DNA of 64,000 bases from Zygnema cylindricum (Eukaryota > Streptophyta > Zygnematophyceae > Zygnematales > Zygnemataceae). Positions 3,469 through 42,192 of the stretch are shown here, piece after piece. The number at the start of each line of letters is the position of its first letter. Position 1 is the first letter of the stretch. The stretch is from positions 119,364-183,363 of the forward strand of contig JBBHKE010002000.1 in NCBI GenBank assembly GCA_037447655.1. Direction: 5' to 3'. A model generated the notes under the pieces. It did no database searches, was not told where the DNA came from, and saw only the letters and a program-made list of their open reading frames with translations. Position numbers and translations under genes: made by a program.

Positions 3469-4878
3469 TGTCGTGCATGAGAGACTAGAAAGAGCGAACA
3501 TGCATCCCAACCAGCAAAGTCATGCTCCAAACATATATACAAACGAAAATGGATGAGATGGGCAAAATGTACATACAACATGCAAAAGAATAAATGTGAA
3601 TATGACCAAAAGAATAAAAAGGTAAGAATACTCCCCTAGCAAGAAGTGGATCCTATAATTAATACTCAGCCACAAGGTAGCCACTAGGCTCTTGGGTCTT
3701 CAACGTATTCTTTACAAGAGTTATCTCGTACGAAAGCAACGAAGCAAAATAAATAATTCCAACCAAAAACAAGGAAAACTCAAAATTCAGCCAAAATTCA
3801 CCCTTCCATTCCCAACCGAAAATACAAACAACACAAAACAATCACCCAAACCGTCTAGCTGTCCGTGGGAAGGGCAGCCGAATCCGGATGCTTCTCCACA
3901 CGAACTCCAATCCACCACTTCCCAAAAATGATACAAGTTGGAGGGAAACCTTCCGGACTTGGCTTTGAGCCGCGTGGATTAAAAGCGTGGGCAGAATTAC
4001 AAGGGAGAATGTGCATAAACTATCTAGCCTCTACAGCTAGCTAGCAAAAGAAAGGAAGAAACTTGAGCAATCGGTGAGAGAGAGAGAGCAAGAGAAAGCT
4101 CCGCCGCCAAGAGAAAATTCTTGTCCAAAAGCTAGAAATCCTAAGTCTAAAAATAGACTAAGTAGTAGCTACGCTACGCCTACGCAAACCCTAACCTAAG
4201 TCTAGGCTAGTTCACATGAAAGAACTACTTAGAATGTTGGCCAATAGGCGGCCAACATTGTATGCCGCACGTTCCGCATAATCCACTGTCCGAGGGTATA
4301 AACCCTCCCTAACTACATGTATGCGCGAACCTACATGGGTTCGCGACTTAAATAAACATATGTATCGAAGCGTCGCCTGGAAATCGCAATACGCCTCCAA
4401 ACGATACTTCACGTCGATACTCCCAAAATCGCGTGCGTACGCACGAAACGAAAACATATCGCACGAAATATATGGTATCGCACGAAATACTTGAAAAATG
4501 TGTACCTGCGCATGAAACGACATGGTACCACGCACGAAATTAGTATTTGTTCTATTAGACGTGTACGCGAATCGCGTACACATCAAACATAAATAAATCA
4601 CGGTCGCACGTGCGACCGAAAATCATACACGCACGTCGAAATATCGTGCGTGCGAGAATGGTATCATGCGCGCGTAAATGAAATCACACACACGTCGAAT
4701 ATCGCGAACGCGTGCACGATATCGTGCGCGTGGACACAATATTGCGCGTGCGTGCACCGTATCGTGCACGCATGGAGAATATCGCGCGCGCGAGCACAAT
4801 ATTGTGCGTGCGTGCGCGATATCGTGTACGCATGCAAAATGTTGTGCGCGCATGCGTCCGATACCATGCAGCATGACA
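3469..4878 (-). repeat. Gypsy 3' LTR (copy 1)
   Basis: On the minus strand it begins TGTCATGC and ends GCACGACA, so it has TG...CA termini. The same two ends bound the insertion at 49086-56315, which is independent support for them. The first part carries a GC-rich alternating purine/pyrimidine minisatellite (about 4640-4860 on the plus strand). The last 192 bp (3469-3660) are repeated at 4881-5072 with one mismatch seen by eye. Confidence 0.75.
4640..4860. repeat. GC-rich minisatellite in gypsy LTR
   Basis: About ten degenerate units alternate CG/CA-rich steps with an ATATCGTG or ATATCGCG core. The same array recurs in the other LTR copies at about 53070-53290 and 56060-56300. The repeat keeps several frames open on both strands, giving spurious Arg/Ala/His/Tyr-rich reading frames that are not genes. 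Confidence 0.8.
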
Positions 4879-4880
4879 GC

Positions 4881-5072
4881 TGTCGTGCATGAGAGACTAG
4901 AAAGAGCGAACATGCATCCCAACCAGCAAAGTCATGCTCCAAACATATATACAAACGAAAATGGATGAGATGGGCAAAATGTATATACAACATGCAAAAG
5001 AATAAATGTGAATATGACCAAAAGAATAAAAAGGTAAGAATACTCCCCTAGCAAGAAGTGGATCCTATAATT
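4881..5072 (-). repeat. Extra copy of the LTR 3' end, between poly-G tract and LTR
   Basis: This 192-bp segment matches 3469-3660 with a single mismatch seen (C/T at 3592 versus 5004, in the TATATACAAC region). It lies directly downstream of the coding region and the poly-G tract, and is separated from the LTR start by two bases (4879-4880, GC). The same order is present in the other family copy at 52850-53044. Confidence 0.8.
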
Positions 5073-5082
5073 CCCCCCCCCC
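5073..5082 (-). other. Poly-G tract, possible polypurine tract
   Basis: Ten G on the minus strand lie just after the stop codon of pol. An equivalent G10 tract (52840-52849) lies after the coding region of the second copy. Position and purine content fit a polypurine tract that primes plus-strand DNA. However, the sequence that follows it is not the TG-starting LTR but the extra LTR-end segment. Confidence 0.45.
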
Positions 5083-5088
5083 AGCTCC

Positions 5089-8083
5089 TTAGCCTGCGGA
5101 GGAGCTGGTCAAAACCGCTGGCAGCTCACGACAGCCATGGCAAAACCAATGGCCACCTGGCACAGCTGTCAATGGAGGAACTAAACACTCCATGTGGAAC
5201 CCTTGGTTACAATGGTCGCACAAGAGCATAGAAGTCTCGCCGTCTGCTCGCCTGCAAATGGTACATTCTGTCGCCTCTGTGATTGGCATCCTCATCGGAT
5301 CCATATCCTGTGACAAATCCGGTAAGTAACAAGGTGCACAGTTCTTTGAATGCTCTCGAATTATCCTTGTATCCGCACCCTGCAAACCCAACATCCCATT
5401 AGCATATATTTCCACCACACGAAGAATGTGTGGTGAAACATCCGTGTCCAAAGTGTCGAAAGATTGTCGACGAAGGTACACGTAATCTCCGACTTGGTAA
5501 GATTTCAGTTGAGGCTTGTAACTGCCACTTCGCGTAGTGGCAAAGCGCAAGGTATCCCGATGTTGGGCAATCTGCAAATTATCAAAAGCCATGGGCATCT
5601 CACGAGCGAAAAGCAAAGCACGGCGAGTTAGTTCTTCCAAGAATATAGTGTCAGACATTAGAGGCAAAGGTAGACTTGTTGCTTTTTGAATATTTCGACC
5701 GAGCAAGGGTGCTCGGCCGAAGAGGATATAGTACGGGCTGAAATTAGCCAAACTAGCCTGTACGGACATCCGGTACCCCATGGTGATATAGCCCAAGGAT
5801 TCGTCCCAAACAGAGATGTGTTTCTCCAAACAATGCTTTCGAAGAGCACGCTTGAAAGTTTGGACGACTCGTTCCGCTAAGCCATCGGCTTGTGGGTGAT
5901 CACGACTCGTCCGGCGATGATCAATTAAAGCTTCATCCAACATCTCTTGAAATTCCCCGCGGAACTCCGTACCCTGGTCCGTGAGAACCTCCGCAGGAGC
6001 TCCCGAACGCATGAGAACGTGCTCTTTAAAAGCAACAGTGGTCAATTTAGCGGTCTTGTGGGGAAGAGCGACCACCTCTACCCACTTGCTAAAATTTTCA
6101 ATCATTATCATGATGTATTGTTTCCCTTTTCGAGATAAGGGAAACGGTCCGGCGAGATCCACCGACCAGCGGTAAAACAATCCTCTGATGGGCAATGGCT
6201 GTAGAGACACCTGCCGATTAGAGAAAGAGGTGCGTAGCCGGTCGCATGTGGCGCATTTATGGAGAATTGCCGCCACATCCGCTTGCATTCCGGACCACCA
6301 ATAGCGTGCCTGTACTAGGCTCAAAGTACGCTTGGTCCCATAATGGCCAAGCTCGGTATGTATCTGCTCAATCAAGGACAAGCGCTCGGTTGGCCGGGGA
6401 ACATGCCGATGACTGTTGTCCGCTAGCAATCGAACTAAAGATCCGCCGAGCCACAGATAATTTTTTGCTTGTTTCTTAACTCGGTCTTCCTCCTCGGTGG
6501 TAGTACCGGGCCGAAGTGTTTGAGAGGAGAGGAAGAGGATTAATGGGCCGTCGCGCCACGGATTTGTGGCCGGTCGAGGGTGAGGAACAGAAGAGAGACA
6601 GTAAGTGATATAGGAACCCGCCGACATCACTGGTACCTCATCCTCGTCGAAATCTTGCCAGACTCCGCTATCGGTGGTCCGAGGTAGTGGATTCCGAGAA
6701 ATCCCGTCGGCGTTCAAGCTTAACAAACCGGGCCTATGGATGATCTCAACGTCGTACTCTTGTAAAATTAAAGCCCATCGGGCAAGCTTCCCTGATAGCT
6801 TATCGTTGGTCATCAACCAATGAAGGGGTTGATGGTCAGTTAGGAGCGTAAATGGCTTGCCGTAAAGATAATGTCGAAAATGAACGATACCCCATACCGC
6901 GACGAGACATTCACCCTCGTAACTACTGTTATTGGATTCAGCTCGGTTATTGCTCCGGCTAACGTATGCCACTACGTATTCCTCTCCATTCAACTCTCTT
7001 TGCGTTAAAATAGCCGCAATGCCAGGCTTCCCAAAATCGGTTTGTAGGCAAAAGGGGAGCTTGTGGTTAGGAGGTCGAAGAATGGGCGCGCTAGAAAGAG
7101 TGGTTTTCAGTTTTTGAAATGCTTCTACTTGGGCGGGTCCCCACACAAAAGGCACCTCTTTTTTAAGAAGGTCATTGAGAGGTGAAGCGATCGTGCTAAA
7201 ATTCAGTACAAAACGCCGGTAATAATTGGCTAGTCCAAGGAAAGCCCTCAAACTAGTGAGATCGGTGGGAGTTGGCAATTTGGTGATTGCCTCTACCTTA
7301 GCTTCCAAAGGGGTGATGCCCTCAGCCGAAATAAAATGGCCGAGGTAGGGCACTCCCTCCGCACCGAACGTACACTTGGCTGGGTGACACTTCAGCCCGA
7401 CTTTCTTCAACTCGGTGAGAACCCACTCAATATGGCGCGCGTGTTCCTCGACCGTGGCGGAAGCGATTATCAAGTCATCGATGTAGCACCGGGCAAATTT
7501 ACATCCACCCAGCACCGAATCCATGACTTTTTGAAACACGGCGGGTGCGTTCTTAAGGCCGAAAGGCATTACTGCCCATTCCCACCGACCATCACTGCCC
7601 CAAAATGCAGTTTTATGCCAATCTCTTTCCTTGACTTCAATCTGGTTAAACCCTTGACGCAAGTCAAGAATGCTAAAGAACTTTGCACCACCTACATAGT
7701 CGAATATCTCCTCCGCTAGAGGCATAGGGTGGCGGTCTTGAACGGTCCGAGCATTGAGCTCTCGGTAGTCCCCACACATTCTTCGCTCAGTGAAATTTCC
7801 TTCAGAATCTTTCTTCCTAGGCATGACTGTGGGGGCGGCAAAGGTGGAATCCGACCGATAGATCAGACCGGCTTCTTCCAATTCTGCGCACCTTTTGTCC
7901 ACCATCTCCCATTCCATTTCGGAGAGACGGTGTTTCGGTTTAAAGATAGGTCGATCGTCTTCAAGGTCGATTGACATTTTGTAAGTAGAATGACGTCCAC
8001 GGTCATTCATTGAGAAAGCAAACGCATCTATATGACGGGTGACTGTGTCACTTAATAGTGCATGTTCTGCCTTTGTGAGACTG
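5089..8083 (-). CDS. Gypsy pol: RT-RNase H-integrase with C-terminal PHD finger
   Basis: The frame is open for 1006 codons from 8109. The first nine codons come from the inserted solo LTR, so real pol begins at about 8083. RT: catalytic Asp near residue 149 (SILDL) and YIDD at 209-212. RNase H: Asp358, Glu398/400 and Asp425. Integrase: zinc ligands His584, His589, Cys619 and Cys622, then Asp651, Asp711 and Glu746 (spacing 35). The C-terminus carries a C4HC3 PHD finger: Cys949, 952, 964, 967, His972, Cys975, 990 and 993. All core catalytic residues are present and there are no internal stops, unlike every other element here. The product would be processed into RT/RNase H and an integrase tethered by a PHD domain. 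Upstream, across the solo LTR, the frame continues into the methyltransferase. Confidence 0.93.
5131..5265 (-). other. PHD finger at integrase C-terminus
   Basis: Spacing is CX2C-X11-CX2C-X4-H-X2-C-X14-CX2C with a Trp two residues before the last Cys pair (HWFCHGC), the classic PHD pattern. PHD fingers bind histone H3 tails. In chromoviruses this place is usually taken by a chromodomain. A damaged version (QGFHMECL followed by a broken second half) ends the reading frame of copy 2 near 52730-52830, so the domain belongs to the family and not to one copy. Confidence 0.88.
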
Positions 8084-9425
8084 TGAAATTCTACGGGCTC
8101 CATTGACACATAGAATTCGCAGGTCCAAAGGAAGCTAATCTAGATAGTGCCGACTCCAAGTTTATACAAACCCAAATGATTGACCCCTTGACAATCAGAA
8201 CCCCATTACAGCTTCACCCCTGTGAAATAAGACTTTCTGTGTGCTCAGTTCCACGACAGAATGCAAAGTTAGAATATGAGTTTTGGACACATTCACCCAC
8301 TTTGACTTTCCCCTAGAAATGCAGCCACCCTGGCAGGCAAATAGTCTGACCGACTACACCCCTATGTAGCCTGGACTCCCATGAGTCCGCAGCAAAAAGA
8401 ATCACTGAAAATGGTCAACTGAATTGACAGTTATGGCTGGCCAAAGTTTGCCATTTATACAAGGTGCTCTCTGGGAGAGACAGCTACCTACCAAAAATAT
8501 TCTAAGTCCTAAAACCCCTCTCTAAGCCCCCTAGTACTAAGGTACGAACCAATAACAAGAATGTAAAGTACATAAAGGTACAGGTGCCGGTGTACCTTTT
8601 GTACGCCCATCGTACGACATGGCCAAAATGTCGACAAGTGCCATATCCAGATTTGTTCCTACAATCCCCAGAATTCATGCTTCCAAATCTTATCCCTCCA
8701 CGTGGCGCCAGGTCAGAAAAGCGGTACCGTACAGAAAGTACAAGCGCCGGAGTACTTTCTGTACGGATGTTGTACGATGATGCTTTAATGTGACATTTGT
8801 CACATCCGGATATGTTATGTTCCGTTCCGGAGATTTTGCAACCTGTAGGATTTCGCCACGTGTCATTGGGAGTGGTGACGTCCGCAAACGCCAAAAAACC
8901 TATTCCGCGATCTCGGCGTTTATTGCGGCCGTCCGATTTAAACCGGCATTCAATTTTAGCCGTCGAAAATTGTGTCGGTATTTGTTTCGATAGCGAAACA
9001 AATGCGCGGTATTCGTTCCGTCCCCGTATCGTAATCCGTACTAAATAAAACTGTATCTATGCACTTGAGTATCTATTTTCCGTTAATCGAATTAATCTAC
9101 GTGTAACAATTTATATACTTAACAAACCCTACATAATGTAACACCATTCCTAGACTTAACGGTTAGAGCTACCGGCTACGGTTGACTTGACGGCTGGAAG
9201 GGACCAGGATCAATTCCTGGGTCCGTCAACATCTTTTTAGTAAGTCTACATTTATCTATACCTGTCTCTCAGGAGAGCTTAGGCAGCCATGGCTCTAGCT
9301 CCCTTTCCAGCCTTCAGTGACTACAACAAGTGTGGGGGCTTGGAGAAGGGAGTTAGAGGCAGACTGCTTCTACTATTTTTCTATCCTTATAAAGACCTAG
9401 AAAATACTCAAATATCAACAGACTG
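8079..9425 (-). mobile_element. Copia solo LTR (B) inserted in the gypsy reading frame
   Basis: The LTR is 8084-9420 (1337 bp). On the minus strand it starts TGTTGATATTTGAG and ends AGAATTTCA, with perfect 5-bp duplications GACTG at 8079-8083 and 9421-9425. It carries the same landmarks as the LTRs of Copia1 and Copia2 (TTTTCTAGGTCT near the start, CAATGGAG near the end). Removing the LTR and one duplication (1342 bp) puts the methyltransferase frame and the RT frame in register. A tRNA-like stretch lies at about 9150-9232 on the opposite strand to the LTR. Confidence 0.9.
9150..9232 (+). other. tRNA-like segment, antisense inside copia LTR (B)
   Basis: It contains GGTTAGAGCT, which resembles the end of a tRNA D arm. 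A hairpin with a 7-base loop follows (GGACCAGG, loop ATCAATT, then CCTGGGTCC), and GTTGAC/GTCAAC can pair around it. It is too degenerate to call a tRNA gene. Equivalent segments occur antisense in Copia1 and Copia2 LTRs. Confidence 0.35.
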
Positions 9426-10733
9426 GAACCGAACTTCCACTTGGGCGTCTCGGGACTCTTAATAGTGAAAGCTTCCATGTCCTGAGCAAATGCAATTTGC
9501 TCATCGGCGATGAGTGTGTGGCCTAACTCGTATTTTACCGGAGTTTGCTGCGAGCAGTTCACCCAATGGTGCCAGCTACGCGTCGGAAATGCAGCTGTCC
9601 AGTGCGGTGGAGGGCCAAGAAACGATAAAATTGTGGATTGAACGGCTGTATAGGCCGAGATTTCCCAAGACATATGACTGGGGTTGAGGAATTCATAGAT
9701 GTCCTTAACCGCCGGTGTGAGAGAAGGGAAGAGAAAAAACTGAAATGGATTTCCCTTTAGACTAGGAGAGGTGCGAGAGGAAACAAGCCGTGAAGGAGCC
9801 GCTGTATTCCCCCACCCAGCTGGTTGCACGGGGTGTTTCTGTGCGTAGCGACCAGCTGCAAGGCCGAGACCTAAGACAAATGATAAAGATTGAGGATCCA
9901 TGACCCTACCCAACAAAGTGCAACGCTGTCTATCCGTAAGGCCGGGGGCCGCAGTCGTGCTTGGAATAAAATGCATGAGATGTTCCCGTTCTGTGGCCGT
10001 AGGTTCCTCTAACTCTCCAGTGACATTATTTCGGAGCATGCTTGGACCGTTATGAGAGTATGCATGGGAATTAGGGTAAGACACTAAAGTAGGAAGGACC
10101 TTGAGGGGGTGGTCAGGTACATTAATACTGTAATTCAGAGGGTAGTCAGATTGGACACAAGATTGGACTTGGTGGAAGGGAAGCAAAGCGGTCGTAATGT
10201 CTATAGTCGGAGGACGTACCAACAAATTAGCTTCACGAAGACGACCAACATCGATTAGGTTCGTCCATTTGGAGCGAACCCGATGTGCCAAGGACCCATG
10301 CCGAGCGGCATCAATAATTAGCGGGGGTCCGATAAGGTGTTCTATGCGCTTATAGTCAGCCAGAACTGTTGGCCGAGGATCATTATAAGCGGCGACGTTC
10401 TCTAAAAGGTATCCGACAGGCTTGGCCATGGTTTGAAGAAAATGAAGGACCCTCAAAAGCTCAAAAAACAATTTGGTACGGGGATCCGCCAAACCGAGAC
10501 CTTTGCCGGCCCGAGACATGCCTTGACACTCCCACCCTCCGAAAACAAGGTCTATCGGTTCGACATCCCGGAGATGATGATTACTAAGGATGCGGATGTC
10601 TTGTGGAAGAGCAGTATGCATGTGTAGAAAGGCTGACTCTGGAAACAAGTGTGGATATTGTGAATGCAGGAGATTACAGTGGTGTAATTGTGCTTTCCTA
10701 GCTAATGCATCAATTTCTACTGCATAAGGGTGT
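9426..10733 (-). CDS. Cytosine-C5 DNA methyltransferase domain (DRM/Dnmt3-like) of the gypsy polyprotein
   Basis: The frame is open from 10789 to 9353; the part that is methyltransferase starts about residue 21. Motif II-like YAVEID is at 22-27. Motif IV is DLVFGGWECQGMS (80-92) with catalytic Cys88. LFFELLRVL follows at 107-115, then motif VI LLENV at 128-132, motif VIII-like HRVRSKWTNL at 169-178 and motif IX/X-like RCTLLGR at 289-295. The order and the HRxR...W.NL block resemble DRM/Dnmt3 enzymes. The usual Pro of PCQ is Glu. Motif I (SAM-binding FxGxG) is absent because the deletion near 10733 cuts just upstream, so this copy is probably inactive. Residues 330-464 are unassigned and lead straight into the RT. 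Full elements could methylate cytosines in host or self DNA, which is inference. Confidence 0.85.
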
Positions 10734-11246
10734 AAGGGCCGTACCGCGGAGGTATCGACCGAGAAGGGAAAAAGCGACACGGAGGTCAAACCTATCCTGA
10801 TATCTGAATGCTAAATCCCTCATTTCGGTATCGTATAACATACGGAAATGCGATAAAGACATGGTGTCCTTCATTCCGGAAAAGCAAAATTGCATCCTTC
10901 CCATGGATCCCTCGGAAGAGGAAGCCATGTCGTAAAAGGAAGGATGGGTTGGTTGTGCCAAAGCTGGGCTGGTAGGGAACCTACGAATGTGAGGAATAGG
11001 AAAGGTTTCCTCGGGGAAGTCTTCTTCGGTCCCCTCTAGGTATGACCTAGATGAAACTGAGGACAACGTTGACGTAGATGTGAGACGAGACCGCACTGAC
11101 GGCGATCTGCGATCCGCAATTGGATCGGATGTGGTCCCCGATTCGGGAAAATCCGAAGGATTTAACTGCGGAGGACGATAGAGTGTACCTCCTCGGGTGG
11201 GCCCTGATAAATATTGAAGGGTATCCCAATCTGTGGGCATAAACAA
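10734..11246 (-). pseudogene. Gypsy gag N-terminus, fused out of frame by deletion
   Basis: Starts MPTDWDTLQYL and aligns with the gag of copy 2 (from 50141): shared blocks are GGTxxRPPQL, MASSSEG and SHFRMLY followed by TEMRDLAFRYQDRFDLRVAFS. Similarity stops at RYLRGTALT, where the DNA jumps to the methyltransferase. The junction CCCTTACACCCTTATGC shows a CCCTTA microhomology. The gag frame then closes within a few codons (stop at 10710), while the methyltransferase frame is open in another register. Gag would form the virus-like particle; here it lacks its C-terminal half. Confidence 0.85.
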
Positions 11247-11395
11247 AGGGGAAAACCCTGACTACAATAATGAAATGTTTCGCACGACCTAACCGAGATG
11301 CAACACGTGTCAGACCAATCCACTCACCCAGTCAACACACTCAGTCACTATCAAGACCCGATGGTCATATCTAGCAAGAAGACGCTAATAGCGAT
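11247..11395 (-). other. Gypsy 5' leader remnant
   Basis: Untranslated sequence upstream of gag. It aligns by eye with 49990-50140 of copy 2 (shared TCTTGCTAGAT...GACC and GGGTCTTGATAG). It ends near 11395, where an unrelated repeat begins, so the 5' LTR and primer-binding site are lost. Confidence 0.65.
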
Positions 11396-15317: not shown

Positions 15318-15370
15318 TGAAGTATAAATTTTTTTTTGGGTACATTTTTATAATGTACAGTTGAAATATT

Positions 15371-15780
15371 GCAGATTTTTGGAGATTGAGATGTTAAAAG
15401 GTAAGACTTGCAGAATTTTTCGATTTCGAATAGAGTGGTTTTGGAAATTTGAAACATTGATGATTTAAAAATGGATTTTGAAAAATTTGACATTGCAGAT
15501 TTTTGGAGATTGAGATGTTAAAAGGTAGGGCTTGCATAATTTTCACATTTTGAATAGAGTGGTTTTGGAAATTTGAAATATTGATGATTTATTAATGGAA
15601 TTTGGAAAATTTGACGTTGCAGATTTTTGAAGATTGAGATGTTAAAAGGTAAGACTTGCAAAATTTTCACATTTTGAATAGAGTGGTTTTGGAAATTTGA
15701 AACATTGACGATTTATAAATGGAATTTGAAAAATTTGACATTGCAGATTTTTAGAGATTGAGAATTGGTTGGTTAAGAAT
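15371..15780 (+). repeat. 124-bp tandem repeat inside the hAT element
   Basis: Units begin with GCAGATTTTT at 15371, 15495, 15619 and 15743, exactly 124 bp apart, giving three full units and a partial fourth. Each contains GAGATGTTAAAAGGTA and ATAGAGTGGTTTTGGAAATT. The array lies between the transposase and the right inverted repeat. Confidence 0.92.
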
Positions 15781-16742
15781 TTTAGAATTTGCAAAATATG
15801 AAATCGGTGATTTGGCAAGATACGAAGCATTCAGAATTTGAGAATTGAATCTTAAAGGTTTTGACATTGAAGATTTGGAGATATAGAATTGGTAAGCTAG
15901 GAATTTTACAATTTTAAGAATGAGTAATTGGTGATTTGGCAAGATGTGAAGTATTGAGAATTTGGGAATTCAATTTATAACATTATGACATTTAATTGAT
16001 TATGTATGTTGGTGAATTGAGGCATCGGAGACTTGTATGTTGATGCCTCTAAGCTGGACTGGAAATAGGACTAAGAAATATGAGATATGTCTTAAATAAC
16101 GCCATGTATCGAATCAATGTATACGAAATCTGCGAGAATACCTCATAATCGTCCAAGTTTCAACTTATGCATTTATTTTGCCCGGCATAATTTCAGATCG
16201 CTTGTAAAATGGACTAAAAATGCTTTAAAGTTGAAAGCAAAAGTCAAAAGGACATTCAAGACGGGTATGGGAGCGTGGAACCCAAGTAAAACCCCCTTAA
16301 ATTAGGAATAATGAAAGAAAAATCGCAATTTTTTACCGAAATCGGGAGTAGGGGGGTCCGCTACGCATCCAGGGAATAAGACGTACAGTTGGGTGTATAG
16401 GCCGGTACAGACGTACATTTATCGCCACGGCCTGTACAGTTATCGCCGATAGTTATTGTTATCGGCATTATCGCCGATAAGTACCGATAAGTACTACTTA
16501 TTGGTGATAAGACTGATGTCGATATATCGTACCAATATATCGATTATCGGGAACCCGAAAAAAGGTCCATATTGGTTATCGGTAAATCCTTACCGATACA
16601 CAACAATACAAATTACAGTCAGAGATTAATTAGTATATATATTTTTTTTCAAAAAATAAAAATTCCTGATTAGTGTTAATAACACTATTTTTTTTTTACG
16701 CTATTTATTCTTTTACTCTAATAGCGAATGACGGTGTACTGT

Positions 16743-19212: not shown

Positions 19213-19434
19213 ATAAATATAGAAATTAATGGTACATTTTTAGTATTTTCTAGGTCTAAATAGAAATATAGAAAGAAGCCGAGGCAGTCTACCTCTAACT
19301 TCTCTCTCCAACTCTCAAACTTGTCGCAGTCACTGAGAAATTGGAGAGGGAGCTAGAGCCATGGCTACCTAGGCTATCCAGAGGTTTACGAGAAATTTAT
19401 ATTAGTTAGGGTTTATTTATTTAAAAGGATTGTG

Positions 19435-19515
19435 CCGGCGACAGGAATTGATCCGTGTACCTACCGGTCGGCAGACAGGGAGTAGCCGGTAGCCTTAGCC
19501 GTTAGCTCTAGGAAT
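19435..19515 (-). other. tRNA-like segment, antisense in Copia1 5' LTR
   Basis: On the minus strand it reads GAGCTAACGGCTAAGG, then ACGGATCAATTCCTGTCGCC. The GGATCAATTCC core is shared with the segment in solo LTR (B). It resembles the D-arm end and T arm of a tRNA but is degenerate. The 3' LTR has the same segment near 24838-24918. Confidence 0.35.
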
Positions 19516-20252
19516 AACATTACGTAATATGTAGTTTGATAATTATTTAAACATTAATACGTAGGATAAATCATTTAACTGTAACTGTTTACGGTATACA
19601 TAGATCCGGTAATGTATAAGTACGGAATACGGTATATGCAAGAAATCAATACCTCTCATTTATTTCGTAAGTGAAACGAATACCGCGCATGTATTTATTA
19701 CGGCTACGATTAAATTCGTTTCTAATCGGACGGCCGGAATTAGCGCCGAGATCGCGGAAGAAGATTTCGGCGGTTTGTGGCCATCGCCACATCGGATGTC
19801 GCGTGGCGAAATTACATTGGATTGTGGAATCTCCGGAGATTATGGCACCGAATCCGGATATGACATGTGTCGACATTTAGGCCATGTCGTACAATGTCCG
19901 TACACAAAGTACACCGGCAGCTCTACTTTTGCGTACGTAACTGTATTTTGGTTGGTTCCGTACATCAGTAGATAGAGTCTGTGAGAGAGATAAGACTTAG
20001 AAAAATTAGGAGATAGGACCCTCTCTCCCAGAGAGCTTCTGTACAAAAGGTCAACTTTGACCCTCCATAACTTACTGCTCAGGGGAGAAAATTCAGAGAT
20101 TCTTTTTGCTATCGACTCAGGGGAGTCTTGCCTTCACAGTGGTGCAGGTGGTCAGAGTTTTTGTCTACCAGGGTGGCAGTTATATTTGCTGAAACACAAA
20201 GGGGTCAGGATTATCCTAGAGGCTTCTTGGAAGCTGTCCACTCTGAGAACTT

Positions 20253-23200
20253 ATGGAGGTCTCAAAGTTTCAGGTTATGGGCCCACCCTCTAGGGTACCA
20301 ATCTTTAATGGAACTGGATTCATATACTGGGAAAGTATGATGATAGGAGCTCTATGCGAAAAAAGGTTTTGGGGGATAGTGAGTGGACGGTTGGGGCGTC
20401 CATCAAGTCTTGGAATTCCTCAAGGGTTTGGAGGAACCAGATTCACCAGGAAAAAGGATCCGCCTTCAACGGAGGAAACAAAAGAAGGAGAGGTGGTGGA
20501 CAAAGGAAAGGAGAAGGAGACGACCACACCAATTGCAACTGGTTCAGCATTTGTGTCACCTATTCCGAGGAACGAGGAGAATGATATTGAAACCTGGGAC
20601 TTCAACAATATGGCGGCAAAACATTTCATCCTACGCCATCTCACTCAAGGACTTGCATGTCCTCATTTGCAGGTAGAAAGGGCATCTGATCTTTGGATGG
20701 CTCTCATAGAGATGTACCGAAGTGGTACGATTCAGCAACAACAGTTGGCTGATCAGAAAGTTAAGGAGTATGTATACAAAAGGGGAAATATGTTGGATTT
20801 TTGCAATGAGCTTGCTACACTCTTCATGGAGCTACAGAGTGCGAGAAAAGATTTTAGTGAAAAAGAAAAGGTTAACTGTTTACTGATGAAGTTACCTGAT
20901 GAGTTCGAGAACATAGTCAACCGTGTGTAGGACTTGCCGGACTCAAGATGGATATGGAACTCAGTGGTAGGGATGATTCTCGTTCGAGAGAATACGATTG
21001 AGATCCGAAGGGGAGGAAAGAGTGGCCAAGCCTTGGCAACAGCGACCGATTGGAGGAACAAGGATTCCCGGAAACCAGTCAGAAACTATGGGGGTAGGGA
21101 GCAGAAAAAACAGGCTGACGAGTTCGAACCAAGGGCTCCCAAATGCTTATGTCATTTTTGTAAGAAACCGAGGCACTATATGGCAGAGTGCATAAGCTAA
21201 CCGAGCTTCGGTTAAAAGAGGGGCAGACCGGTGGTACCCTGAGAGGAAAGAAAAAGGCCCTTGTCACACAGGTACTTGAGGCTGAATCCGAAGACGAGGA
21301 CAATGAGCTCCTTTTGATTGAGGAGTTGGAGGCGAAAAATGAGGTCGAAATTCCACGAAGGCAGAAATGTGCTTACGGTGGATTGAAAGGTGAAGCACGC
21401 TGGATTGTAGATTCAAGTGCCTCCATGCACATGTGTAAGGATAGACACCTGTTCACTAAGATAAGAAAGATTACCAACGTAGAGATAGAGTACGGAGATG
21501 GGAGGATAGTCACCACTACTCTTGTAGGATCAGTAGATCTAAAAGTGTTAGTAGAATGAAAGACATCCATATTAACATTCTCCGATGTATTATTTATTCC
21601 GGAGCTGAACAAAAACCTTATCTCTACATCTCTATTAGATGATAAGGATTTTTTCACTAGCACTAGGGAAGGAGTCTTTACTGCTAGTTTTGATGAGGAT
21701 GTCTATTTCATTGCTGAGAAAGGTAGCCATGGGATGTTTAGGCTGATCTTAAATAATGAAAAGAAGAAATTTTATTATGTTGGTGTTCATGATATTATGA
21801 TGTGGCATAAGAGGCTTGGGCATGTGAATCTAGATAAGTTAAGAGAGATGAAAAAGATGGGAGAAGTGGAAGGGATTCAGTTTAGTGAGAATGATGATAT
21901 AAGTGATTGTAGTGGATGTGCTCAAGGTAAAGCACACAGATTACCCTTTCCTAAAACAGCCACGTATAAGGGAGAAAAAAATCTAGATCTAGTACACAGA
22001 TATTTGGGGACCGGCAAGAGTGCCCTCAACGGGGAAAAAGAGATTTATGATGACTATAACTGATGATTGGTCTCGGTATTCCCGGGTGTATTTTTTGAAA
22101 AACAAGTCAGAAGATCAGGATTGTTTTAGTCAATATATAGCATCGAGCGAAAAACTCCATGAAAATCCAATCAAGAGAGTAAGGAGTGACAATGGTGGAG
22201 AGTATACTTCTAACCTGTTTGAGGATTTTCTGAGGGAAGATGGGGTCCAACACCAAAAGACAGTTCCAGAAAATCTGGAACAGAATGGGGTAGATGAAAG
22301 GTTAAATAGAATACTAAGTGATAGTGCTAGAAGTATGTTGTCGGATAAAAAGATAGGAAAAAGGTTTTGGGGCAGAAGCAATGAGCTGTGCTAATTACCT
22401 CAAGAATAGAGTTCTTACTTCAGCTATAAAAGATCAAACACCTCATGAGAGATGGACAGGCCGGAAACCAGACATATCTCACTTAAAGGTTTTCGGTAGT
22501 CAAGTATTCAGTCTAGATACTGATGGGTCCAATTGGAAGCTAGATCCTAAAAGAAAACCGAGATACTTATTAGGATATGATGAGGATGTTAAAGGACATA
22601 GAGTTTATGATCTAAAAAGGGAAGATATAATCTTAGTAAAGCATCTAGTATTTATGGATAAAGGAAAGTCTTTGGATCCCTTCAAATATACAAAGTCAGT
22701 AAAAATCAGATTTGAGTCAGAAAATTCCGATGACTTTGAGCTTCCTAACTATCCAGGTTTTAGAGAAGGTAACACTCGTGTAGGTACAAATCAGACCGAA
22801 AAGGACTCAAATGTGGAAAATCCAGTGACAACTCTACCCGAAGCGGAAGACGTGGTGGAAATTGATTCGGACTCAAGGGATAGGGGAGAAGCCGAGTTTG
22901 TTCGAAAGAATCCACGAGAACCATCTATTCCGGCCTCAGATTTTGAGGGGGGAAGGAGAAGTAACAAAATACTGCAAGAAAAACAGGTTAATAACAAGGT
23001 AACTAAACTATCTCATCAAGATGAACCTCAAACTTATGGAGAGGCGATGACTTGTCCAGAAAGAAACCGGTGGAAGACAGCCATCAATGAGGAGATGGCC
23101 TCAATTATGGCAGCCGATACTTGGGAGCTGGTGGATTGTCCACCTAACCGAAAACCAATCGGTTGTAAGTGGGTTTTCAAATTATAACAGAACCCAGATA

Positions 23201-24607
23201 ACACAATCGAGCGCTACAAGGCCAGATTAGTGGCAAAGGGATTTATACAAAAGGAGGGAATTGACTACGAGAAAACCTTTGCCCCGGTGGTCAGATTTCC
23301 CTCCATCCGCATACTTCTCAGCTTGGAAGCAGCGGATGACATGGAAGTGCACCAGATGGACATCAAGACTGCCTTTTTGCATGGAGAATTGGAAGAGGAG
23401 ATCTTCATGCGACAACCCGAAGGTTTTGTGGAGGAAGGAGAGGAGAGTAAGGTATGCCGGCTGTTAAATCTCTTTATGGTTTGATACAGGCGCCTCGACA
23501 GTGGAATAAGAAGCTTGATGAGTTTCTACCGGTCTGGGATATATCCGGATCAGCTCAGATCACTCAATCTATGTTTTTGAAGATGAGGAAGGTATCATAT
23601 TCATTGCAATTTATGTTGATGATTTGCTTGTTTTAAGTAAATCAATGGAAAAAAATAATAAACAGAAAACTGATCTTAAGAGGAGATTTGAAATGAAGGA
23701 TATGGGTGGAGCAAAATATATTTTGGGAATTCAAGGGGAGAGAGACCGAAAAAGAAAAATTATAAGATTGACTCAAAAGGAAGCAATATAGAACATGCTT
23801 GAAAAATTTCAAATGGATAAAGCTAATAGTTGTACAACTCCAATGGAGTTGAAGAAGGGAAGTGAGGGGAGTGAGGAAGAAGGAGTCATAGTCTTAGAAG
23901 AGAAATTATCTCCAGAAGAACAGAAGTTCATGCAGACTATTCCTTACAGGCAAGTAGTGGGAAGTGTAATCTATTTTATGAATTATACCCGGCCGGATTT
24001 AGCTGCAGCTGTAGGAGTGCTGAGTAGAAGTCTAAATGCTCCCACTAAGAAGGATTGGGAGGCACCTAAGAGAGTTTTTAGATACTTGATAGGAACTAGG
24101 GATCTATGGGTGCATTTGGGTGGGGAGATTACTGACATCACTACTTGGAGCGATGCTAGTTATGGTGATGCTCCTATGAGGAGATGCACTTCTGGATATG
24201 TATTATATGTGGGTGATGGGGCTTGCTGTTGGAGTAGCAAACAACAAAAATTTATTGCTCAGTCCACCATGGAGGCTGAGTATATGGCCTCTTGCTCTGT
24301 TGTAAAAAAATTGATGTGGGTCAAGTCTTTGCTTGGTGAGCTTGGTCACCTTAAGAGTGGTGTGCAGAATTTTTTTTGTGATAATCAGGCTGCAATCGCT
24401 ATTTCTGCCAATCCTAAACATCATTTTAAAGCTAAACACATGGACATTAGACTCAGCTTTGTTAGAGAGAAAGTAGAAAACAAAATAATCAGTTTAGAGT
24501 ACCGACCAGATAGTGAGATGGTAGCAGATATGATGACCAAACCTGTGCCTTCCCCTAAGCTAATTTTCTGCAGGGAAAAGTGTGGTCTGAAATTAAAGAT
24601 TGACTAG
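20253..24607 (+). pseudogene. Copia1 gag-pol pseudogene
   Basis: The frame starts at ATG 20253, inside the last 20 bp of the 5' LTR, and runs through the primer-binding site (encoded VMGPPSRVP). Pieces in order: gag with zinc knuckle CHFCKKPRHYMAEC (21150-21195); protease with DSSAS near 21410 instead of DSGAS; integrase zinc region WHKRLGH and CSGCAQGKAHR (21800-21945); integrase core D and E regions to 22390; RT from 23190 (KARLVAKGF, MDIKTAFL); the YVDD region near 23610, frameshifted; RNase H 23795-24607 (WSDASYGD, STMEAEY, CDNQAAI). It carries at least five in-frame stops (20928, 21557, 23185 and others) and several frameshifts. The first stop replaces the CAG found in Copia2. The copy is not functional. 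Confidence 0.93.
20273..20288 (+). promoter_or_regulatory. Copia1 primer-binding site, half-tRNA type
   Basis: GGTTATGGGCCCACCC follows the LTR directly. It is complementary to the anticodon stem-loop region of initiator tRNA-Met (GGGCCCATAACC), not to a tRNA 3' end. Drosophila copia is known to prime from a 5' half of initiator tRNA-Met in this way. Confidence 0.75.
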
Positions 24608-25681
24608 AAAATAAGGGGAGTGTAGAAATTAATGGTCTTTTAAAGTATTTTCTAGGTCTAAATAGAAATATAGAAAGAAGCCGAGGCAGTCTACCTCTAA
24701 CTTCTCTCTCCAACTCTCAAACTTGTCGCAGTCACTGAGAAATTGGAGAGGGAGCTAGAGCCATGGCTACCTAGGCTATCCAGAGGTTTACGGGAAATTT
24801 GTATTAGTTAGGGTTTATTTATTTAAAAGGATTGTGCCGGCGACAGGAATTGATTCGTGTACCTACCGGTCGGCAGACAGGGAGTAGCCGGTAGCCTTAG
24901 CCGTTAACTCTAGGAATAACATTACGTAATATGTAGTTTGATAATTATTTAAACATTAATACGTAGGATAAATCATTTAACTGTAACTGTTTACGGTATA
25001 CATAGATCCGGTAATGTATAAGTACGGAATACGGTACATGCAAGAAATCAATACCTCTCATTTATTTCGTAAGTGAAACGAATATCGCGCATGTATTTAT
25101 TACGGCTACGATTAAATTCGTTTCTAATCGGACGGCCGGAATTAGCGCCGAGATCGCGGAAGAAGATTTTGGCGGTTTGTGGCCATCGCCACATCGGATG
25201 ACGCGTGGCGAAATTACATTGGATCGTGGAATCTCCGGAGATAATGGCACCGAATCCGGATATGACATGTGTCGACATTTAAGTCGTGTCGTACAATGTC
25301 CGTACATAAAGTACACCGGCAGCTCTACTTTTGCGTACGGAACTGTATTCTGATTGGTTCCGTACATCAGCAGATAGATTCTGTGAGAGAGAGATAAGAC
25401 TTAGAAAAATTAGGATATAGGACCCTCTCTCCCAAAGAGCTTCTGTACAAAAGGTCAACTTTGACCCTCCATAACTTACTGCTCAAGGGAGCAAATTCAG
25501 AGATTCTTTTTGCTATCGACTCAGGGGAGTCTTCCCTTCACAGGGGTGCAGGTGGTCAAAGTTTTTGTTTGCCAGGGTGATAGTTATATTTGATGAAACA
25601 AAAAGGGGTCAGGATTATCCTAGAGGCTTCTTGCAAGCTGTCCACTCTGAGGACTTATGGAGGTCTCAGAGTTTCAATAAA

Positions 25682-35774: not shown

Positions 35775-36811
35775 TGTTGAAATAAGTAGTTTTTTCTAGG
35801 TCTAAATTTATTAGAAAAAGAAAATGTAGGCAGCCTGCCTCTATCTCTTCTCTCTCTCTCGCCCCCATATTTGTTGTAGTCACTGAAGGAGAGAGAGAGA
35901 GAGAGCAATGGAGCCATGGCTGCCTCAGCTCCATAGGAAGGACTAAAGAGTGGCTTAAGCCACTCTCAACAAACGGTTGAGTCCGGCAGGACTCGAACCC
36001 CCGACCGGCAGAGCGCGGCGTAGCCGTTAGCTCTAACCAGTCTGTCGTAGAAGTCCGATAGGAGATATAGGGTTTCATTACTATTTAAACTATTGTAATG
36101 TACTAGATTCATTTAACTGAAACCCTTAACGCCACACATAGATACAGTTCTACAAAATACGAAGTACTGTATTTGTTTGAAATGGATATCGCGCATTTTG
36201 TTTCGACAGTGAAACAAATATCGCGCAAGTATTTATTACGGCCGAGATTGAATTTCGCGTCAAATCTAACGGCGCACATCATCGCCGAAATCCCGGAATG
36301 GTCATTTTGGCATTTAATGACGTGGCATGACCTGGCGCCACGTAGGAAGACATCATTCGGTCGCAGGAATTCCGAGGAACGTACGGACGAGTGGAAAGTG
36401 GACACGCGTCCACTTAATGGCCTTGTCGTACAGAGGCCGTACAGAAAGTACATCGGCAGTAGTACTTTCTAGTACTATACAGTTTTGTGATTGGTTCGTA
36501 CAGGCAGTAGATAGGAGCTGTGAGAGGGAATTAGGAAAAACTAGGACTTAGGAAAATTTAGGTAGATAGTCCTCTCTCTCTGAGAGTTTGTATAAATTGG
36601 CATCTTTGCCACCCTATAACTTATCGGCTGGTTGGCCGTTTTCAGTGATTCTTTTTGCTACGGACCCAGGGGAGTATAGGCTGCATAGGGTTGCAGTCAA
36701 ATTGTCAGTTTGACTTCTTGGGCAGAAGTGGTCGTGGCTGAAAGTGGGTTAGTTAAACACTATCTAGAGGCTTCCTGTATTCTGTAGTCCAATGGAGGAC
36801 ACAGAATTGCA
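35775..36811 (+). repeat. Copia2 5' LTR
   Basis: Starts TGTTGAAATAAG and ends AGAATTGCA. A TATA-like box TATAAATTGG lies at 36591-36600, in a position fitting a promoter about 220 bp before the LTR end. The gag start codon (36792) lies within its last 20 bases. Confidence 0.92.
35975..36062 (-). other. tRNA-like segment, antisense in Copia2 5' LTR
   Basis: On the minus strand it has CTGGTTAGAGC (a tRNA D-arm end), then GGGGGTTCGAGTCCTGCCGG, which includes a perfect Pol III B-box (GGTTCGAGTCC). Spacing between the two blocks is about four bases longer than in a standard tRNA and stems are imperfect, so it is a tRNA relic or mimic. The 3' LTR has it near 41358-41445. Confidence 0.45.
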
Positions 36812-39390
36812 GGTTATGGGCCCACCCTCTAGGGTGCCCACCTTCAATGGATCTGGGTTCATCTATTGGGAAGCCATGATGATGGGAGCTTTGTGTGAAA
36901 AACGATACTGGGGTATCGTGAGTGGACAAGTGAAACGTCCACCTTCGGGAACTCCACCAGGATTTGGGGGAGTAAGGTTTTCTGCAACAACGGCTGCCTC
37001 AGCGGAGGAGGCAGATGATGGGGACAGCAGTGTGTCCGAAAAGGAAAAAGGGAAGGAGACACCCCTCACTCCTATTGCCACAGTATAGGGAGCGGCGACC
37101 GTGAAGACCGTGGAGAACGATACTGAAATGCGGGAGGATGTAAACATGGCTGCCAAGAACTTCATTCTGAGGCACCTCACTCAAGGTTTGGCCACTCCTC
37201 ATCTTCACATTTACAAGGCGGAGGAGTTGTGGGAAAGTTTGGTGGAGATTTATAGAGCTGGAACTATTCAGGAGCTCCGGTTGGCTGAGCAAAAACTATT
37301 GAGTTACAGTTACAAATGAGGAAAGATGTTAGATTACTATAATGATCTTTCTTGTTTGTATATGGAAATGGAAAGTGCCGGGTGGACAGGTACAATGAAA
37401 ATGAAAGTTAACACCCTTATCATGAAATTACCAGATGAGTTCGAAAACATAGTGTATCGAGTACAGGGAATGCCTGATAGTTCATGGAAATGGAACACAG
37501 TAGTCAGGATGATACTTGTGCAGGAAAACACAATGGAGATTAGGAGAGGAGGAAAGAGCATTCAAGCTCTAGCAACAGGAGGGGACCGATGGGGGAAGGA
37601 CCCGAAGAAACCTTATAGAGGGGAAAGAGATATGTCTGGGGGACAGAGGCCTCCAAAGGGTCTTTGTCATTATTGCAAAAAGCCGGGACACTTTATTGTA
37701 GATTGTGTCAAGCTATCAGAGCTGAGGCTCCAAGAGAACCGTGGAGGAGGTTCTTCCGGAGGGAAGAAAAAGGCACTTGTGGATAAAAAATTTGTCAGGA
37801 GAAACCGAGGATGAGTCATCTGAGGAGGATAGGGAGCTTCTTCTTGACAAGAGTCTGGAGGAGAAGGAGATCCCTCGGAGGCAAAAGCGTGCCCTTGGAG
37901 CAATTCGGGAAGCTCCACAGGAAGGATGGATCATCGACTCAGGTGCATCCATGCATATGTGTCGTGATAAAGAACTCTTCACTAAGTTAAGAAAGATTCC
38001 TACTGTAGAGATAGAGTATGGGGATCGGAGAGTGGTTACTACAGATCTAGTGGGATCAGTAGATTTGAAAGTCTTAGTGGAGGGCAAGACTTCCATACTT
38101 ACATTCTCAGATGTACTTTACATTCCTCAGCTGAGTAAAAATCTTGTCTCTACGTCTGTTGTAGATGACAAAGAGTTTGATACTTTCACTAAAAAGGGAG
38201 TCTTTACAGCTAAGTATCGAGATGAAGTTTACTTTACAGCAGATAAGGGTAGCCAAGGAATGTTTAGGCTTAACTTGAGTAATGAAAAGAAGAATGCTTA
38301 CTATGTTGGTGTTCCTAAGGTGATGATTTGGCATAAGCGGTTGGGGCATGTGCATTTTGACAGGTTAAGGGAAATGAAAAAGCTTGGGGTAGTAGATGGC
38401 ATTCAGTTTGGGGATAATGAAGTGATGGATGATTGTAGTGGTTGTGCTCAAGGTAAGGCTCACAGACTTCCCTTTCCCAAAGCCGCCACATATAGAGGTG
38501 AGAAAGTGTTAGATTTGGTCCACACAGACATTTGGGGACCTGCAAAAGTACCTTCGGTTGGAGGAAAGAGGTTTATGATGACAATAACTGATGATTGGTC
38601 TAGATACTCTAGAGTCTACTTTCTGAAAAATAAGTCTGAAGCATCAACTTACTTCAAAGTATATAAAGCATGGAGTGAGAAATTGCATGAAACCCCTATT
38701 AAGAGGATAAGGAGTGATAATGGGGGAGAATATACCTCTAACCAATTTGAGGAATATCTGAGAGATGAGGGAGTGCAACACCAGAAAACTGTACCATATA
38801 ACCCATAACAAAATGGGGTAGCTGAGAGGTTGAATAGAACACTAGGAGATAGTGCATGCAGTATGTTGGCAGACAAGAAAATAGGAAAGAGATTTTGGGC
38901 AGAGGCAATGAATTGTGCCACTTATATTAAAAATAGAGTCCTCACCTCAGCTGTAAAGGGAGTGACACCTTATGAGAGATGGGTTGGAAGGAAACCAGAT
39001 ATCTCACACCTTAAAGTATTTGATAGCCAAGTTTACAGTCTTGACACGGATAGGAAAAACTGGAAACTAGATGCTAAGGGAAAACCGGGATACTTTGTGG
39101 GATATGATGAGGATGTTAAGGGATATAGAGTCTATGACTTAGCAAAGAAAGATATCATTCTGGTCAAACACTTAGTTGTCATGGATGAAGGGAAGTCATT
39201 TGACCGCTTCAAATATACAAAGAAGATAAGGATCAGATTTGAGTCCGAAAGTGAGGAGAACTCAGTCATTCCCGAAAAAGACATGAGTGAAACTGAGATT
39301 ACAGATTCAGGGGAGATCGATGATACAAGAGACTCACCGGAAACCTCACATACTCCTATGGACTTCGAGGAGATAGAAGAAGCGGGTTAA
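36792..39390 (+). pseudogene. Copia2 gag-protease-integrase, interrupted by few stops
   Basis: Starts MEDTELQVMGPPSRVP inside the LTR and reads through the primer site. Gag zinc knuckle CHYCKKPGHFIVDC is near 37665-37710. A frameshift lies near 37741-37814. Protease DSGASMHM is near 37935. Integrase follows: WHKRLGH, CSGCAQGKAHR, first Asp in DLVHTDIW near 38525, second in RSDNGGEY near 38715, Glu in AERLNRT after a stop at 38806. In-frame stops are TAG 37086, TGA 37317, TAA 38806 and TAA 39388. At two of these the related Copia1 sequence or codon logic points to CAA/CAG/CGA ancestors, i.e. C-to-T changes. Confidence 0.93.
36812..36827 (+). promoter_or_regulatory. Copia2 primer-binding site, half-tRNA type
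   Basis: GGTTATGGGCCCACCC, identical to Copia1. It is complementary to the anticodon region of initiator tRNA-Met, as in Drosophila copia. Confidence 0.75.
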
Positions 39391-39402
39391 GATACGGTTT
39401 TT

Positions 39403-41142: not shown

Positions 41143-41155
41143 AAAATAAGGGGAG

Positions 41156-42192
41156 TGTTGAAATAAGTAGTTTTTTCTAGGTCTAAATTTATTAGAAAAA
41201 GAAAATGTAGGCAGCCTGCCTCTATCTCTTCTCTCTCTCTCGCCCCCATATTTGTTGTAGTCACTGAAGGAGAGAGAGAGAGAGAGCAATGGAGCCATGG
41301 CTGCCTCAGCTCCATAGGAAGGACTAAAGAGTGGCTTAAGCCACTCTCAACAAAAGGTTGAGTCCGGCAGGACTCGAACCCCCGACCGGCAGAAGGCGGC
41401 GTAGCCGTTAGCTCTAACCAGTCTGTCGTAGAAGTCCGATAGGAGATATAGGGTTTCATTACTATTTAAACTATTGTAATGTACTAGATTCATTTAACTG
41501 AAACCCTTAACGCCACACATAGATACAGTTCTACAAAATACGAAATACTGTACTTGTTTGAAATGGATATCGCGCATTTTGTTTCGACAGTGAAACAAAT
41601 ATCGCGCAAGTATTTATTACGGCCGAGATTGAATTTCGCGTCAAATCTAACGGCGCACATCATCGCCGAAATCCCGGAATGGTCATTTTGGCATTTAGTG
41701 ACGTGGCATGACCTGGCGCCACGTGGGAAGACATCATTCGGTCGCAGGAATTCCGAGGAGCGTACGGACGGGTGGAAAGTGGACACGCGTCCACTTAATG
41801 GCCTTGTCGTACAGAGGCCGTACAGAAAGTACATCGGCAGTACTACTTCCTAGTACTTTACAGTTTTGTGATTGGTTCGTACAGGCAGTAGATAGGAGCT
41901 GTGAGAGGGAATTAGGAAAAACTAGGACTTAGGAAAATTTAGGTAGATAGTCCTCTCTCTCTGAGAGTTTGTATAAATTGGCATCTTTGCCACCCTATAA
42001 CTTATCGGCTGGTTGGCCGTTTTCAGTGATTCTTTTTGCTACGGACTCAGGGGAGTCCAGGCTGCATAGGGGTGCAGTCAAATTGTCAGTTTGACTTCTT
42101 GGGCAGAAGTGGTCGTGGCTGAAAGTGGGTTAGTTAAACACTATCTAGAGGCTTCCTGTATTCTGTAGTCCAATGGAGGACACAGAATTGCA
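41156..42192 (+). repeat. Copia2 3' LTR
   Basis: Same length as the 5' LTR (1037 bp) with TG...CA ends. It is preceded by the polypurine tract and followed by the GTGAT duplication. TATA-like TATAAATTG lies at 41972. Confidence 0.95.

Follow-up and report, generated by a model that had tools for sequence, protein, structure and literature searches.

The window analysed here, a 64,000-nt stretch of Zygnema cylindricum contig JBBHKE010002000.1, carries on its minus strand a dead member of a recently active Ty3/Gypsy-type retroelement family. In an intact sibling, a DNMT3-like DNA methyltransferase (hereafter DNMT) and a C-terminal PHD finger belong to one polyprotein. The ends of these elements form split direct repeats, a feature that the original prediction for this DNA had missed. 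We consider it probable that the family replicates through a circle with two long terminal repeats (LTRs), which integrase opens inside an LTR, with the PHD finger serving as a tether and the DNMT acting on complementary DNA (cDNA) or on the circle. DNA methyltransferases are known from only a few retroelements, and in the Zygnema family the enzyme is accompanied by another chromatin domain that is under selection. The family has many copies, one of them young with an open reading frame (ORF), and its life cycle can be read from the genomic record through target duplications, joint scars and methylation scars.

The methyltransferase and the PHD finger share one polyprotein in an intact sibling

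The host assembly (352.8 Mb, 2689 contigs) was searched with the DNMT ORF of the window and with its PHD tail. The DNMT ORF gave at least 93 match rows, which correspond to at least 89 loci after four second pieces were dropped, the window locus included; the PHD tail gave at least 150 matches. Ten sibling copies, all chosen through their DNMT match, were retrieved at ~20 kb each, except C783, for which the contig end left just 14.4 kb. One of these, C1344, contains a single 2395-aa ORF in the order gag, CCHC, protease (PR), DNMT, reverse transcriptase (RT), RNase H (RH), integrase (IN) and PHD, with two zinc knuckles, a DTGA protease motif and DNMT motif I (FAGIG). The protease and the zinc knuckles scored below Pfam cut-offs (0.011 and 0.0072) and are assigned from motifs, and gag had no Pfam match. 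The order PR-RT-RH-IN (PR by its motif) and the DDE integrase are those of Ty3/Gypsy elements. The long repeats at the two sides of the C1344 ORF (A1 and A2, described below) are identical across 931 bp, and its insertion is therefore recent. The remaining nine fetched copies are disrupted by stops or frameshifts, and C1344 is the one copy among the ten fetched that has the whole domain set in a single ORF.

The spacing of the two domains supports this arrangement. Going by the PHD matches listed, a same-strand PHD tail lies no more than 6 kb downstream (median 2727 bp) of at least 40 of the 89 DNMT loci; the upstream and opposite-strand counts are both 0. A dead Gypsy element lying by accident next to an unrelated methyltransferase gene would account for the two separate ORFs in the window, but it is refuted by the single ORF of C1344 and by the conserved spacing against 0 controls, and a gag remnant precedes the DNMT in the window itself; we regard a chance juxtaposition as practically untenable. 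The original prediction would have been refuted by a lack of profile matches or by relatives without both domains. Instead, both profiles matched and the PHD motif was found in all ten fetched copies, each recruited through its DNMT match. A Gypsy-type element encoding a DNMT3-related methyltransferase and a PHD finger is thus supported as a family trait.

A search of the assembly with PF00145 scored 123 matches; those tied to fetched copies are retroelement copies, and the remainder are unplaced. Two IMG/VR scans for viral carriers gave no relative (55 pattern matches, none confirmed, in one; no pattern match in the second). Some loci are unusual in their arrangement: C1988 and C2281 have DNMT and PHD matches with identical scores on two contigs (a duplication or haplotigs), and C1959 has two inverted DNMT copies 4.6 kb apart.

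The window copy is truncated, deleted and interrupted

Comparison with four sibling copies showed that the recognisable element spans 3469-11384 on the minus strand, beyond the 5089-10733 to which the original prediction had confined it. Its features are as follows, all on the minus strand.

3469-3660: B2, outer copy of the short repeat; 99% identity to B1; ends ...GACA at the host boundary
3661-4878: A2, long repeat beginning TGTC; counterpart of A1 in full copies; 95.8% identity to A1 of C1063 and C449
4875-4884: palindrome GACAGCTGTC at the B1/A2 joint, where both element tips are joined via GC; shared by the window and all 9 fetched copies having the joint (TATC for TGTC in C2495)
4881-5072: B1, inner copy of the short repeat, from repeat comparison
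5073-5090: polypurine-like tract (aaggagct and a G-run) immediately before B1, from the sequence
5089-8109: pol ORF, 1006 aa, with RT, RNase H, integrase and PHD (Pfam)
5131-5265: PHD finger, Pfam residues 949-993 (PF00628, 4.1e-11; PDB relatives PHF12, KDM5/Lid, KAT6A and BAZ2B)
5893-6174: integrase core (rve), residues 646-739 (Pfam)
6754-7062: RNase H, residues 350-452 (Pfam)
7336-7791: reverse transcriptase, residues 107-258 (Pfam)
8088-9419 (ends approximate): later insertion of ~1.33 kb, interpreted as a TG...CA solo LTR with 5-bp duplication CAGTC; missing in the four relatives compared
9420-10726: DNMT3-like methyltransferase remnant (ORF 9353-10789) with motifs IV, VI, VIII and IX/X kept and motif I deleted (PF00145, 4.5e-9; alignment; map)
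10727-10730: junction left by an internal deletion of 2249 bp, measured against sibling C2234 (sibling map)
10730-11384: remnant of the start of gag; 5' truncation of the element at 11384, with A1 and the leader gone (sibling map)

As predicted, the pol ORF contains RT (PF00078, 7.5e-28), RNase H (1.7e-31) and integrase (H2C2, 3.4e-15; rve, 4e-12), followed by a C-terminal C4HC3 PHD finger. The profile searches suggested at that time for the methylase and the PHD finger both gave matches above cut-off, the former over residues 63-134 of its ORF only, and all the methyltransferase motifs quoted (GGWECQGMS, LLENV, HRVRSKWTNL and RCTLLGR) are present. The internal deletion runs from gag to DNMT motif II and removed the end of gag, the zinc knuckles, the protease and motif I, which is why the window DNMT ORF lacks motif I. 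The solo-LTR-like insertion separates DNMT from RT, leaving a gap of ~1.24 kb between the two ORFs. The window copy is dead: it is 5'-truncated, internally deleted and interrupted, and therefore its DNMT and PHD finger are not in one polyprotein. The proposed single polyprotein accordingly fails for the window copy and holds for C1344.

Elsewhere in the window, Copia-type ORFs (gag, integrase, RT) were found at 19238-25579 and 35788-42079. Several places in the window resemble the 8088-9419 insertion at 71-80%; some of them flank Copia ORFs, and the surroundings of the two Copia regions are 71-77% like it. A tandem array with a period of 124 bp and units 77-92% alike occupies 15369-15995. Scans of the window for tRNA genes and with Rfam gave nothing. 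In the host assembly, GRAS gene matches occur at 27 places on 12 contigs, which, given the distribution of GRAS genes, agrees with a streptophyte and probably zygnematophyte host.

The methyltransferase is DNMT3-like and the PHD finger resembles readers of unmodified H3K4

Judged by its sequence, the element methyltransferase (METHYLTRANSFERASE) is DNMT3-like and not of the DRM type. Among PDB sequences its best relative was DNMT3A (2.4e-10); DNMT3C and 3B came next, and bacterial enzymes scored far worse (0.005). Consistently, all 50 matches listed by Foldseek were DNMT3 entries, on the strength of the better N-terminal half of a partial AlphaFold model; the two models obtained were poor (mean predicted local distance difference test score (pLDDT) 41 and 48), the latter being good in parts of that half only. 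In the nomenclature of C5 methyltransferase motifs, DRM enzymes are permuted, with VI-X before I-V. The element enzyme has the order I, IV, VI, VIII, IX/X, with motif I (FAGIG) ahead of IV and VI. Motif order and PDB relatives together rule out a DRM origin, and only the DNMT3 half of the DRM/Dnmt3 identity first proposed stands. PADLOC and NCBIfam returned general C5-methyltransferase models only.

The catalytic loop reads ECQ in this family (family 1) in place of the Pro-Cys pair; the pattern ECQG was found in the open frames of eight of the ten fetched copies and in the window, and not in those of C2495 and C2573. The loop is PCQ in a second family described below and in P0001, a 301-aa predicted protein of JGI source that was the sole match of a protein search and has a similar DNMT (GWPCQG, AHRLRAWWTNL). 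From P0001, relatives probably exist beyond the Zygnema genome.

The closest PDB relatives of the PHD finger were PHF12, Lid/KDM5 PHD1, KAT6A and BAZ2B. KDM5 PHD1 and BAZ2B are readers of unmodified H3K4, and the C4HC3 match together with KDM5 PHD1, BAZ2B and PHF12 as relatives places the element finger with this type. It lacks the tryptophan of H3K4me3 cages. We infer that it would bind histone H3 unmethylated at lysine 4 (H3K4me0) and target the element to chromatin. No chromodomain, which chromoviruses have at the integrase C-terminus, was among the Pfam matches; the PHD finger occupies that end instead.

A second family has the same layout, and both domains are constrained

A second Gypsy family in the same genome (C1374 and C544) has the same order PR-DNMT-RT. 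In C1374, the only family 2 copy read to its end, the ORF closes with a PHD-like finger that scored slightly below cut-off (PF00628, 1.2e-4, 22.5 bits against 24). One copy of each family was compared, and identity was 42% in DNMT, 51% in RT, 69% in RNase H, 56% in integrase and 39% in the C-terminal tail. Because this divergent family has the layout in common, the pairing of DNMT and PHD is probably old, the simplest reading of the sequences being that it predates the split of the two families.

Selection was examined by pairing copies of different subfamilies whose frames are intact. Between subfamilies, 61-77% of four-fold sites differ, and saturation of the synonymous differences prevented the computation of Nei-Gojobori synonymous rates (dS) for these pairs. 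Residue differences are far fewer: 15-22% in the DNMT core, 5-8% in RT, 9% in integrase and 12-21% in PHD. These comparisons indicate that DNMT and PHD are both under purifying selection, weaker than that on RT.

These data bear on the idea that both domains are mere passengers, captured from a host and without a role in transposition, or that the DNMT acts on RNA or is inactive. The ECQ loop of family 1, the lack of activity of the related Klebsormidium domain in yeast (PMC5890265) and the faster evolution of PHD and DNMT relative to RT would fit. However, two families whose RT sequences have diverged at roughly half of all residues both retain the two domains (one family 2 copy read to its end), and both domains are constrained where synonymous sites are near saturation; losing them would be easy. 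We judge the passenger explanation improbable.

Split repeats, 4-bp target duplications and a variable joint define the ends

Self-comparison showed that eight of the ten fetched copies have a long repeat (A1, 0.9-1.5 kb) 5' of the ORF and the block B1-A2-B2 3' of it. The exceptions are C1407, which lacks A1, and C783, which has a single B and no A2; C783, an A-ORF-B arrangement without A2-B2, may have arisen by insertion of a one-LTR circle or by later recombination. Ty3/Gypsy elements have the same LTR at both ends. Here A1 does not equal the 3' repeat block, which rules out a plain LTR structure.

The outer tips are TGTC...GACA (TGAC at A1 in C2495). Exact 4-bp target duplications flank six of the eight complete copies (C2602 CCCC, C1344 TTGG, C2234 TAGA, C1063 TTGT, C2495 GGAT and C1915 CCCT), and the flanking 4-mers of C449 and C2573 match at three of four bases; the 4-mers were compared by eye. 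The chance of at least six identical pairs in eight is ~1e-13. TG...CA tips with a short target duplication are as in Ty3/Gypsy elements, and the matching flanks therefore point to DDE-type insertion, unlike that of DIRS elements. Although the split direct repeats are those of the DIRS/PAT type, DIRS membership is ruled out by the integrase (rve found, no recombinase listed by Pfam) and the 4-bp duplications.

The two internal joints differ. The B1/A2 joint, GACA-GC-TGTC, is constant in the window and the nine fetched copies having it, apart from TATC for TGTC in C2495, and the start of B coincides with the polypurine tract. The A2/B2 joint is copy-specific: some copies have an intact A end, some an A end ~80 nt shorter with two tract Gs, some a shortened A end with a 16-nt filler, and others differ again. 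In 11 A-B pairs among the best 40 and 41 matches, the A-B gap ranged from -3 to +73. Six of these 11 have no PHD tail nearby among the matches listed and would be deleted copies or solo A-B units, which correspond to solo LTRs. At C971, C2141 and C1994, pairs of same-direction A-repeat ends lie ~5.8 kb apart, too near for a full element and possibly belonging to a non-autonomous derivative.

A circle opened inside the LTR would explain these ends

We propose the following cycle. Reverse transcription would run from the polypurine tract before B1 to the end of A1 and yield linear DNA with an LTR of the form B.A at both ends. The tips of this [B.A]-ORF-[B.A] DNA would then be joined into a two-LTR circle; a variable A2/B2 joint is the expected leftover of such end joining. 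Integrase would open the circle at the palindromic B/A site within one LTR; its insertion of the opened DNA, duplicating 4 bp of target, would leave A-ORF-B-A-B. The PHD finger, at the position of the chromodomain in chromoviruses, probably serves to anchor the integrase complex on H3 tails that lack methylation at lysine 4. For the DNMT, which adjoins RT, new cDNA or the circle would be the most likely substrate, to be masked or silenced up to insertion or afterwards. The choice of insertion sites through chromatin and the change of methylation at the element or its target, both put forward in the original prediction, are likewise hypothetical.

The same ends could arise with no circle, if RT jumped between repeats or a repeat-spanning transcript gave linear A-ORF-B-A-B DNA, inserted by its tips like an LTR element. 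Tips with 4-bp duplications are ordinary integrase products, and the extra repeat has the same orientation in all eight complete copies, which random site choice in a circle does not predict. Against this, the copy-specific A2/B2 joint, with its losses, tract Gs and filler, looks like the joining of two free DNA ends while B1/A2 is fixed, and the start of B coincides with the polypurine tract. We hold a route without a circle to be unlikely, albeit less so than the passenger explanation.

Several points weigh against the cycle with a circle. A two-LTR circle has two B/A sites, yet the extra repeat is 3' in eight of eight complete copies, a bias left unexplained. No primer binding site was recognised when joint and end sequences were inspected by eye. 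C783 looks like A-ORF-B with unmatched flanks. Forty-nine of the 89 DNMT loci have no nearby PHD tail among the matches listed; they do not by themselves count against the pairing, since the PHD matches listed are a lower bound (at least 150) and decay has affected many of the copies. DNMT and PHD may be parted by protease cleavage. The proposals of H3K4me0 binding and of chromatin targeting derive from sequence relatives. Outside its N-terminal half, the DNMT model is poor (mean pLDDT 48). Activity is uncertain because family 1 carries ECQ instead of the PCQ usual in C5 methyltransferases; the Klebsormidium enzyme was inactive in yeast, a result called inconclusive by its authors (PMC5890265).

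We advance a broader proposal only tentatively, as possible rather than expected: that these elements form a class with circularly permuted LTRs, in which B.A ends make an end-joined two-LTR circle obligatory in each round, a PHD-guided DDE integrase opens the intra-LTR palindrome, and the polyprotein DNMT3 marks the circle before insertion. If circles are obligatory and opened by a DDE integrase, this family would routinely use a form supposed to be a retroviral dead end, and what its methyltransferase acts on would be obvious.

Inserted copies bear probable methylation scars

Six pol copies were compared for changes unique to one copy. With the same sites counted once per copy and codon constraint unmodelled, unique transitions were 35/1825 at CG, 29/1182 at CHG, 30/5104 at CHH and 41/8506 at A/T sites (CG versus CHH, p = 2.7e-6; CHG versus CHH, p = 1.1e-7; with the window copy excluded, 1.2e-4 and 4e-6, respectively). 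The C-to-T signal was strongest in the older copies (the window and C2495), and C449, with few changes, had no CG excess (1/299 versus 5/850 CHH). Overall depletion is slight, with CpG observed/expected of 0.85-1.14 over the stretches compared. The transitions suggest past methylation of inserted copies at CG and CHG, a pattern resembling that of land plants. CHG methylation is more simply the host's own doing, and the element enzyme need not be its cause.

Comparison with known systems

The closest known system, compared by its published description, is KnitGypsy-Dnmt3 of Klebsormidium nitens (de Mendoza et al. 2018), in which Dnmt3 lies in Gypsy elements and cDNA self-methylation was raised as an idea (PMC5890265). 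Likenesses in that description are the Gypsy domain set, an unrearranged Dnmt3 in the Pol ORF, purifying selection, CHG and CHH methylation of those elements that are silent and, according to the legend of its Fig. 4, DIRS-like repeats (PMC5890265). The Zygnema family likewise combines Gypsy Pol, an unrearranged Dnmt3 and DIRS-like repeats. The Klebsormidium elements are described as having fewer copies than those of Symbiodinium (PMC5890265), against at least 89 DNMT loci here. As differences, the main text, figures and supplements apart, mentions no PHD finger, and the parts compared contain no target duplications, joint heterogeneity or replication model (PMC5890265). A 2025 survey records retroelement DNMT3 in streptophytes and dinoflagellates (PMC12344493). 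Among the titles and abstract openings listed from the open-licence literature, we found no report of a Gypsy element with DNMT and PHD, or of split repeats with an integrase.

SymbioDIRS-Dnmt3 of Symbiodinium also has Dnmt3 in a retroelement Pol with DIRS-type repeats, and two of its copies are reported to methylate CG de novo in yeast (PMC5890265). It is a DIRS element, however; the same account calls the Gypsy class distantly related and the Dnmt3 acquisitions independent (PMC5890265). PAT/Ngaro-type DIRS elements are described with the repeat topology A1-ORF-B1-A2-B2, but with a tyrosine recombinase, no integrase and no target duplication (PMC4157794), whereas the Zygnema element has a DDE integrase and 4-bp duplications. 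The proposed class with permuted LTRs would, by analogy, be an integrase-based counterpart to the tyrosine-recombinase cycle of DIRS elements.

Retroviral integrase is said to cut the palindrome of two-LTR circles (PMC1905944, PMC1180852). The Zygnema palindrome, for which cutting is proposed, lies inside the LTR and is inherited, with the tip joint elsewhere. Chromodomain and Tudor Gypsy elements, such as those of Ectocarpus, are described with a histone reader at the integrase C-terminus (PMC12477816); the Zygnema reader is instead a PHD finger, and a DNMT is present. The pairing of a DNMT with a putative H3K4me0 reader would parallel that of host DNMT3A and its ADD domain.

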